Of a stretch of 64,000 nucleotides of DNA, positions 45,101 through 48,100 are shown one piece after another. The notes below the pieces were generated by a model that searched no databases, was not told the origin of the DNA, and saw nothing but the letters and a program-made list of their open reading frames with translations. Location: contig CM055106.1 in assembly GCA_029204225.1 (NCBI GenBank), positions 4,936,858 through 5,000,857 of the forward strand, written 5' to 3'. The translations under genes and the position numbers were made by a program. Positions within the stretch are counted from its first letter, which is position 1, and the number at the start of each line of letters is the position of its first letter. The stretch is from Diphasiastrum complanatum. Lineage: Eukaryota; Streptophyta; Lycopodiopsida; Lycopodiales; Lycopodiaceae.

Positions 45101-48100
45101 CAGGCTTGAGGCTTCCATGCGGTCTCTCCTATGTGATCAGGTACCAAGCTCTTGTAAACAGCTATATGTGCTAGTTGGTTTTCATTGCTGTACATCAGAA
45201 CGTAACTGCTGATTTTTTGCATTTTCAATCAACGACTGTCGAGACTTAAACCCAAGAAAGGCCTAGTTTTCAAACATAATTATGTAGAATTATAACTAAT
45301 TAGACTTTATAGTGTTCATAATTGTTTCTTTCTAGAAGATGAGATTATTTTGATAAACAAATAATAATATTTTTTTGTACAATGCACATGTTCATGAAAA
45401 TATGTTTCTTTTCTTAATATTTGGGGAGTTTTCTATGTTAAAGAACTTTTCTCTATTAGTTTATGTTGCAGAGCTGACTTGGGTGCACCCAATGTGCCCC
45501 GTAAGACTCTAAGGGGTGACACTCCCAAAGTAGTAAAAGCTCCATCGACCTTCAAAGGGGAACATGATGTACGAGTTGTGGAGGATTGGTTGTTTTACAT
45601 GGACATTACTTTTGCTTGATGAACACTCTCGAAGAAGAGAGAGCATATTTTGAGAGCTATACAACAAATTGGTAGTGAGTGGCAAGGATGCAGTTCTATG
45701 GGACACGTTAAAAAACGCTTACGAGAGGAGGTCATACCTAAAGATCAGACATGAGGTTGAGGGCAAAACTATCAGGACTTAGGCAGAAGGTTCACTACGA
45801 GAGTACCGGAACAATTCATGCAGAGTGTATGGGTCATTGAATATATGTCAAGCTGACAAGACCCACTACCTCCTATCCGGAATGCAGACTTGGGCCCGGT
45901 GAGCAATAGACAACTACATGTCCAATGACTTCAACTCTACTATTTAGGCCGCTGAAATGGTTTGCAATTATGAGACCATGCTGGCGCCAATTGCCCCCTC
46001 AGCAGCACCAAAGGTATTTAGTGGATCCAGATAGAGTCCAAGCTTCCTTCCAAGGGGTGACACAACTTCAAAAGCCAACCAAGCCTCAAGTAGCGTGAAC
46101 AGATTCCTAGCAAGAACAGGATTTGGCAACGAAGGCAGCAGCGGAGGGAATACTTTTCAGGGAAAGAATAACTTCGGTCCTTCGACTAGTCACAACAATA
46201 GCTCACCAACAATGGGCAGTTCCTTGTGTTGTTTTAACTGTCAACAACAAGGTCACTCCTAGAGGTCGTGTCCCATGTTAGAAATCCATAAATCATAATA
46301 TGGATGGACAGACTAGGATTCGAACCCAGGACCTCCCTCATACCGGATGGGATGCTCTACCACTGAGCTATCCGCCCTGTTTGATAGTTCTCTCTAGAGT
46401 AGGGATTGATATTCCAACACCCCCCCTCAAGCCACTCTTGGTTGGGGTCCTAGCTGTCACCTGCCCCACAACTTGGGCCATCTAACCATGGCTTTGACAC
46501 CATGAACTGTTAGGTCTAACTTGGCTCTGATACCATGTTAGAAATCCATAAATCATAATATGGATGGACAGACTAGGATTTGAACCCAGGACCTCCCTCA
46601 TACCGGATGGGATGCTCTACCACTGAGCTATCCGTCCTGTTTGATAGTTCTCTCTAGAGTAGGGATTGATATTCCAACATCCCAAGCCATTGAATAAACA
46701 AATTATGGCTGGACCAAGGTATTTGATAAGAGGGAAAGAGAGGCATCCGATCAAGGCGACTGTGAACAAGACGACGAAGAAGACCCATAAATGGATTTGA
46801 CGGAGTCCGACCTGAATGCCCTACAACAATTAGGCATCGTGACTCTTGCAAAAGGATCGAAGTTGTTGTAATTGAAAGGCTGCATTCAAGGTAAGATCAC
46901 CCACTTCATGGTAGATTTGGGAGCATCACACAACTACCTGTAAGAGGAATTAGGCATTCAATGCGAAGAAAATGCGACCCCTATTTGTGTGGAAACCGCC
47001 AAGGGCACAATGACAACTTGTAAATTGGCTACCAATTTGCCAATCTCATTGGGGGCCTGGAAAAATTGACTAACGTTCACAGTCTTGAAGATGAATGCTT
47101 TTGACGCCATCTTGGGACTAAGGTGGTTTAATGAACACGTGGGGCTTAATCTTGTGTTATTGTATAATGGCAGAAGACCTTGAATCGTTAGAGCTGTGCT
47201 AGGATATCAACTAGAGATGAACGCTACATCTGAACCTGAGCCATCCATCCCTTCAAATCTCATTCACCTCGTTAACGAAGGAGAACCAGGAGAGACAAAT
47301 TAGGCGACAAAGGATCAAATGGAGTCAACATTGCCTATAGCTTCTGCATCAAAGATGGATCCGAGTGCCGATTTCGAGCTCAAGGAGCTCAACTTGTGCG
47401 ACCAATGACAAATCTAGAGTCCAAGAGGACTCATTCTGGTGTGCTGAAAATGACATATCTCGGGCTCAAAGGAGCTCTCAAGTACCTTTTCTTTCCATGT
47501 TAATTAAGCTGGCTGCTAGTTTCATGGGGCCCAAGTACTTTCACCAATATTGCAACTTTACACAAGTTTTACGTAATTGAACTAGATCTACACTTTTCTT
47601 GTGCTAAGTGCAAAAGTGATTTATTTTAAAGTTGGTCTTTTTCAGTCGGTGAATAAAGCCGGTGCCTTTGTACTTATGAATAAAATCTGGCCGGTGAATC
47701 AAGCCCACGCCATGAGTCTTAGGTTCTAGTTTGGCCCTGATGAGGACATGCTTTCTCAAACGAGGGGAGGATGTTATAAAGCCGACTCGGGTGCACCCAA
47801 TGTGCCCCGTAAGACTCTAAGGGGTGACACTCCCGAAAGTCCCAGAGCAAGTTAGGAAGTGAAGGATTGAGCGTCCGACCTGTGGTGAGCCAGTTAAGTA
47901 GTCACAAATCATGAGCTAGCTCCGGAGCTCAAGTCATGGCCTAGTCAGCTCTTGGGATCCTTGTCCAGGAGCCAAGCTGAGCTTGCAAATATCCGTACAC
48001 TCACTTTTTCCACCTCAATTGTGCTACAATCACCTTCTATATATCACTACCTTGACATAGAGTGCTCACACATGCATTTTGGCCTCCTATTGCTTTCTCC

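Follow-up and report, generated by a model that had tools for sequence, protein, structure and literature searches.

Two TRIM families of Diphasiastrum complanatum share a tRNA-like module in their LTRs and resemble Helenus in structure

A 404-bp retroelement of Diphasiastrum complanatum with a 73-nt tRNA-like sequence in each LTR adds a new plant member to the known Helenus-type TRIMs, and a further family in the same genome makes the new members rather two; both are likened to Helenus by structure, not by sequence. The element lies in a 64,000-nt stretch of contig CM055106.1 (assembly GCA_029204225.1, positions 4,936,858 to 5,000,857 of the forward strand; referred to hereafter as the window, whose own numbering is used for positions within it). 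We propose that the tRNA-like part probably serves as an internal Pol III promoter and no longer as a decoding tRNA, with the enzymes of movement supplied in trans by an autonomous LTR element.

The complete TRIM (46276–46679, minus strand) consists of two 144-bp LTRs around an internal region of 116 bp (46420–46535), a length too short to encode the enzymes of movement. Its minus-strand reading is given by the primer binding site (PBS, TGGTATCAGAGC, 46524–46535, minus strand, located by motif search) and the G-run polypurine tract (PPT, GAGGGGGGG, 46420–46428, minus strand), such that the order in element sense is 5′ LTR (46679–46536, TGTTGG…CTAACA), PBS (46535–46524), PPT (46428–46420) and 3′ LTR (46419–46276). 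The PBS is complementary to what we take to be the 3′ end of the plant initiator-Met tRNA; its motif occurs five times in the window, where shuffled sequence gives a mean of 0.01. A target site duplication (TSD), TCCCA, flanks the element on the left (46271–46275) and right (46680–46684), and the LTRs differ from one another at two positions (LTR positions 45 and 99), both within the tRNA-like part. The element thus has what defines a TRIM: two LTRs, a total length below 1000 bp, no coding capacity, and a PBS and PPT between the LTRs. A preliminary description of this DNA had given the same coordinates, length, TSD, LTR length and number of LTR differences, all of which proved exact, and had noted a PBS and a PPT; the strand is added here.

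The insertion adjoins a 75-aa open piece of a decayed LTR-retrotransposon gag (46035–46259, plus strand, with the start of a zinc knuckle at its end; motif read by eye) and splits this zinc-knuckle gag, the frame of which already contained a stop before the insertion and runs on across the empty site. The window is rich in other retroelement pieces, among them Copia-type RVT_2 sequences at 2495–3718 and 7110–7658 and RVT_1 pieces at 29594–34241, and the four occurrences of TGGTATCAGAGC beyond the TRIM's own lie at 4025, 11118, 23324 and 63044. The third of these initiator-Met PBS-like sites falls between two exon-like open pieces (within 20477–25632, ~3.6 kb apart) over which a ubiquitin C-terminal hydrolase (UCH) domain is divided; the region is likely a UBP gene carrying an LTR element within an intron.

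Two programs recognize the tRNA-like sequences of the 5′ LTR (46565–46637) and 3′ LTR (46305–46377), both on the minus strand. ARAGORN, run on the whole window, calls two tRNA-like genes, one per LTR and both in element sense, and the Rfam tRNA model (RF00005) scores them at 51.7 bits (5′ LTR, E = 3.4e-8) and 49.8 bits (3′ LTR, E = 1.1e-7). These two tRNA matches are all that Rfam returns at gathering threshold over the window, where the 5S rRNA that marks the LTRs of Cassandra was not found. An A box, TAGCTCAGTGG, lies at 46620–46630 in the 5′ LTR (element position 50) and at 46360–46370 in the 3′ LTR (element position 310), and a B box of the form GGTTCRAATCC lies at 46576–46586 (GGTTCAAATCC, element position 94) and 46316–46326 (GGTTCGAATCC, element position 354); all four are on the minus strand, match the consensus and stand in sense orientation. 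The acceptor, D and T stems that the preliminary description had discerned are fully paired in the 5′ LTR copy (7/7, 4/4 and 5/5 pairs, respectively), and the quality that it attributed to the two boxes is borne out in both LTRs.

The anticodon arm is irregular in all three registers tested: the GGT and CGG registers form four of five stem pairs each and place a C at the U33 position, while the CCG register has a T there but forms only two of five pairs. Of the features of a functional tRNA gene, the module lacks U33 joined to a regular 5-bp anticodon stem and 7-nt loop, and it lacks a T-run terminator; decoding as a tRNA is unlikely. Fold energy is ordinary for the base composition (z of −0.55 and −1.24 in two tests), and the evidence for the module is its covariance-model score rather than its energy.

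We searched the 1.74-Gb genome (5176 contigs) with the whole element; the best 40 scored of 1290 candidates gave 46 matches, which on merging of tandem matches became 39 fetched loci, analyzed together with the window copy. A perfect 5-bp TSD, the short integrase-type duplication looked for in several copies of a TRIM, flanks 31 of these 40 loci. Six locus pairs share their flanks, leaving 34 independent insertions, 25 of them with a perfect TSD. The flanks of these pairs (L014/L019, L020/L043, L027/L046, L028/L032, L029/L033 and L035/L036) are 99–100% identical, and the pairs sit partly on small contigs and partly at distinct places of long scaffolds; they are either haplotigs that were not collapsed or segmental duplications of recent date. 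In 30 loci with two LTRs, the LTRs diverge by 1.48% on average, equivalent to ~0.6 to 3 million years at 1.3e-8 to 2.5e-9 substitutions per site per year, and the recent movement deduced in the preliminary description is supported as fairly recent. ARAGORN calls a tRNA in 85 of the 86 LTRs of these loci (a set that includes duplicates and some truncated LTRs), always in sense; both boxes match the consensus in 72 of the 86, and TTTT occurs in none. Rfam, applied to 20 of the 39 fetched loci, gave 45 tRNA matches at gathering score.

Because the first sample had been picked by whole-element similarity, we drew three more. Selection by the internal region only (20 of 40 matches) yielded 42 LTR matches, of which ARAGORN called 33, seven of its nine misses being pieces of 83 bp or less; three of the 42 contain TTTT, and an automatic test that included truncated copies found a perfect TSD at 7 of 20 loci. 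Selection by an exact LTR–PBS junction (20 of the 26 listed on one contig, C1, at least two of these loci repeating others) yielded 34 LTR matches spanning the tRNA part, of which 31 were called and two contain TTTT; 7 of these 20 loci, truncated copies included, have a perfect TSD. Finally, 20 lone tRNA-like cores, picked by eye from 100 listed of 1047, all proved to lie in LTRs of the window family (family 1) or of the second family described below, two of them (L162 and L165) being solo LTRs with a perfect TSD. Tandem arrays also occur, as at L034:501–1677, where five LTRs and four internal regions stand within a single 5-bp TSD. Genome-wide we count 479 exact LTR–PBS junctions, 1103 exact copies of the LTR 3′ 28-mer and 1047 places that fit a tRNA-like core pattern covering both families, with 0 matches for the reversed control of each.

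Since samples chosen regardless of the tRNA part still carry it, the tRNA-like LTR is a family trait and not a single capture. The preliminary description had allowed that the feature might be lacking from other members or captured by chance in one copy, and had pointed to other copies and solo LTRs as the place to look; the whole-element family and the proportions of called LTRs given above bear out neither possibility. That the sequences resemble tRNAs by chance, were captured once only, or are real tRNA genes with accidental flanking repeats is scarcely credible: we found no point in its support, the Rfam E-values are of the order of 1e-8 to 1e-7 in 64 kb, several hundred copies repeat the same layout with 5-bp TSDs, and the anticodon arm is irregular, with no U33 in its two best registers. 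Chance and single capture in particular are ruled out by the whole-element family, its TSDs and the 479 junctions. Searches of other collections gave 0 matches in viral_contigs and four bacterial matches in genome_contigs; the latter, one of which overlaps an ARAGORN-called tRNA, were taken as chance, and one place on a Curtobacterium plasmid covers 30% of the query.

A pattern consisting of the B box, 20–50 bases and the PBS matches 680 places in the genome (reversed control, 0), and among 100 of these listed, read by eye row by row, 81 belong to family 1, 19 to a second family and none to a third. The same pattern with a gap of 51–80 matches six places, five of which begin with LTR sequence of family 1 or 2. 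The 19 family-2 places were fetched as 18 loci (L142–L159), in which Rfam finds a tRNA at or above gathering score in 16, below it in one and not at all in one. One copy, L144 (487–865), has LTRs of 153 bp, an internal region of 73 bp and the same PBS as family 1. None of the 15 rows with two LTR pieces has a perfect TSD, these copies being older or truncated, and LTR pieces beyond L144 match its LTR at 81–98% (one short piece, from a later sample, at 100%); on both counts family 2 looks the older. TTTT lies within ~16 nt of the LTR 3′ end in 20 of the 26 family-2 LTRs that reach that far.

Comparison of the two families shows where they are alike. Their tRNA-like parts agree in 61 of 74 columns (z = 13.4 against shuffles), whereas the LTR 5′ parts agree in 30 of 53 (z = 2.4), the LTR 3′ parts in 16 of 30 (z = 1.6) and the internal regions, shared PBS included, in 52 of 118 (z = 4.0). 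The LTR flanks and internal regions thus appear largely unrelated and the modules related. That the module has descended in both families from a common source is the simplest reading, and independent capture of one and the same tRNA or SINE by each family is possible; the modules are 0.84 alike, as against a maximum of 0.83 between real tRNAs of different anticodon (382 pairs). We suggest, tentatively, that the module could be a modular Pol III promoter kept by, or passed between, plant TRIM lineages that have otherwise diverged almost beyond recognition, with two TRIMp3 families built round one ancient module in one genome.

To follow the structure across both families, we aligned 25 modules hand-picked from Rfam matches (12 from family 1, 13 from family 2, weaker family-2 matches omitted), a choice that leans toward paired sequences. 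Over the 23 distinct modules, 94.4% of cells pair, a value reached in 0 of 500 shuffles (mean 93.1), and slid structures give 26–50%. The T stem is paired in 100% and the D stem in 98.9% of this sample, and pair 7–66 shows a clean exchange of A-U for G-C between the families. Acceptor pair 3–70 is mostly broken in family 2 and anticodon pair 28–40 in family 1, and two-sided pair changes do not exceed shuffles (4 against a mean of 3.1, reached in 166 of 500). Overall, the structure of the module has been kept, but covariation is weak evidence for this.

In another reading the fold would act as RNA rather than as a DNA promoter, either as a substrate for RNase P or tRNase Z cleavage or as a stabilizing or packaging structure of the genomic RNA. 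We consider this improbable. The fully paired acceptor, D and T stems of the 5′ LTR copy, which do form when the 73 nt are folded in isolation, and the stem conservation just described (in a sample that leans toward pairing) speak for it; against it, the complete cloverleaf is absent when the entire LTR is folded to minimum energy, the two family-specific pairs named above are broken, and an RNA cleaved at its 5′ LTR copy would lose its 5′ end.

What suggests transcription by Pol III is the presence and orientation of the A and B boxes, a 5′ LTR that in the window copy contains no TATAWA, AATAAA, ATTAAA or CCAAT, and the fact that the module occupies a regular place in two families. In this cycle TFIIIC would bind the two boxes and Pol III would start close to where the tRNA-like part of the 5′ LTR begins, at about LTR position 37–43. 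With no T4 in the element, the polymerase would continue across the internal region, enter the 3′ LTR and run past it; the initiator-Met tRNA would prime reverse transcription, for which reverse transcriptase and integrase would come in trans from a putative autonomous LTR element, probably Copia-like; and reverse transcription, in copying one LTR into both, would carry the promoter to every new copy. A search with the internal region did not turn up the autonomous partner: the best 40 scored of 1117 candidates all match at 98–100% over the full 116 bp, and the 20 fetched are TRIM copies.

The 3′ end is the weakest point of the Pol III reading. The sense strand of the window element contains no TTTT, its LTR holding TTT at most, near the LTR end, and with such a T3 only, the Pol III RNA of family 1 would end in flanking DNA. 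The first T4 past the 3′ LTR lies at 3–174 bp in 27 of 40 loci, and 13 of 40 have none within 200 bp. In the general LTR cycle, minus-strand strong-stop DNA is able to anneal at any point along the 3′ LTR repeat, so reverse transcription could proceed despite a variable RNA 3′ end. The absence of TTTT is itself weak evidence, because 404-bp stretches of the window without it are common (254 of 1272 and 137 of 1272 on the two strands) and because TTTT does occur in a few LTRs of the internal-region and junction samples. The terminator argument is weakened further in that only 30 of 43 sampled real tRNAs of this genome have a T4 within 40 nt. A CAA start motif is known upstream of plant tRNA genes; the motif is present in the LTR, and we dropped it as a signal on finding it at 18 of 43 real tRNAs as against 5, 11 and 13 in control stretches.

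Nor did we find a sign of purifying selection after insertion in any of three samples, in two of which the tRNA-like part is more variable than its flanks and in the third equally so; neutrality of each copy after its insertion would predict this. We considered whether faster mutation of the tRNA-like part might signal transcription and rejected the idea: samples 1 and 3 show the effect (P = 1.1e-6 and 0.0023), sample 2 does not (P = 0.64), and the changes are mainly from G:C to A:T. Excluded from this count were six duplicate-flank loci, LTR pieces under 137–140 bp, two more duplicate loci (L137 and L139) and, in sample 3, the final 12 columns.

The preliminary description had suggested finding the tRNA gene of origin, and none emerged from our sample of real tRNAs. 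This sample (49 called, 29 distinct, from 50 of 63 scored tRNA matches) is without many isotypes, for example Ala, Val, Leu, Ser, Phe and Met, and among its 29 distinct members none is close to the module, the best identity being 0.69 to that of the window and 0.65 to that of family 2. SINE copies of the module outside LTRs were looked for and were absent from the 20 lone cores. Like the tRNA-derived SINEs (SINE2), the TRIMs described here have a putative internal A/B-box promoter derived from a tRNA; they differ in that the module lies in an LTR of family 1 or 2 in every one of these cores, and SINEs, to our knowledge, have no LTR, PBS, PPT or integrase-type TSD. High-scoring tRNA-Ile-TAT and tRNA-Asn sequences (L060–L064 and L071/L074/L075) belong to duplicated blocks that are kilobases long and nearly identical, so that duplication, in addition to the TRIMs, may inflate tRNA copy numbers in this assembly.

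In a different account, the element is an ordinary Pol II TRIM and the tRNA or SINE fragment a passenger, fixed by descent and not driving transcription. The missing T4 terminator of the window element and the missing sign of conservation after insertion would both suit a passenger, as would the distance from the sampled tRNA genes, which implies that the module has drifted far from them. We nevertheless think the account rather unlikely: the 5′ LTR of the window copy is without the four motifs named above, both boxes match their consensus in sense orientation, and the module is far more alike between the two families than is the rest of the LTR, which would be unexpected of a passenger unless recently swapped. 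We retain the internal Pol III promoter as the probable role of the module.

According to the preliminary description, a TRIM with a tRNA-like LTR would be new, and only the second LTR element after Cassandra with an internal Pol III promoter. Neither claim survives, as one 2024 paper describes both Helenus and Ajax (Kojima 2024, PMC10886601). There, the name Helenus is given to TRIMs whose LTRs contain tRNA-derived sequence, with hosts among fungi and animals and a single plant host, Selaginella moellendorffii; the name TRIMp3 is proposed for TRIMs with Pol III promoters, Helenus included; and tRNA-derived SINEs are put forward as the source of the Helenus module (PMC10886601). Reported Helenus elements measure 311–1263 bp under a screening rule of <1000 bp, have 5-bp TSDs in the fungal and plant families, and occur as solo LTRs and tandem arrays; some families are called as tRNA-Thr, and most are not expected to decode (PMC10886601).

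Measured against that account, the window element has the structure that defines Helenus, matched by description and not by sequence: a short, gene-free LTR element with an A/B-box tRNA-like sequence in both LTRs, a PBS, a PPT and a 5-bp TSD. Both families fall within the Helenus size range (404 bp for the window element; 2 × 153 + 73 bp for L144 of family 2), solo LTRs and tandem arrays occur, and the 5-bp TSD is seen in the window family and in 0 of 15 rows of family 2. Helenus of S. moellendorffii has an LTR of 120 bp and an internal region of 85 bp, compared with 144 and 116 bp in family 1 and 153 and 73 bp in family 2; the S. moellendorffii genome, at about 0.1 Gb, is also much smaller than the 1.74 Gb studied here. 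As PMC10886601 does for Helenus, we infer use of the Pol III promoter.

Two 5S-derived elements are also comparable in design. Cassandra is likewise a plant TRIM with Pol III gene-derived sequence in its LTRs and known tandem arrays (PMC4717578); it differs in carrying 5S rRNA, in its length of 565–860 bp and in its conserved Pol III promoters and terminators, where the window element has no T4, and it is listed as the only validated TRIMp3 (PMC10886601). Ajax, a nemertean TRIM with partial 5S rRNA, shares the TRIMp3 layout, a similar size (421–434 bp) and a 5-bp TSD, and differs in its 5S derivation, animal host and tRNA-Leu primer (PMC10886601). A TRIM survey of 48 plant genomes finds tandem TRIM arrays to be common, and the word tRNA is absent from its main text in the form available (PMC4717578). 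Among the matches listed from the open-access literature, judged by title and start of abstract, none is another report of tRNA-like LTRs in plants.

D. complanatum is very probably a second plant host of a class for which Selaginella is the only plant listed, and the class is abundant in its genome, at 1047 tRNA-like cores. These LTRs can swell the tRNA gene count of such a genome, since ARAGORN and Rfam call them tRNAs. The presence of two module-sharing families side by side makes the question of Pol III transcription directly testable. If the module has indeed been kept by, or passed between, TRIM lineages, it would mark a long-lived lineage of tRNA-promoter TRIMs in plants, a counterpart to Cassandra so far listed only from Selaginella.
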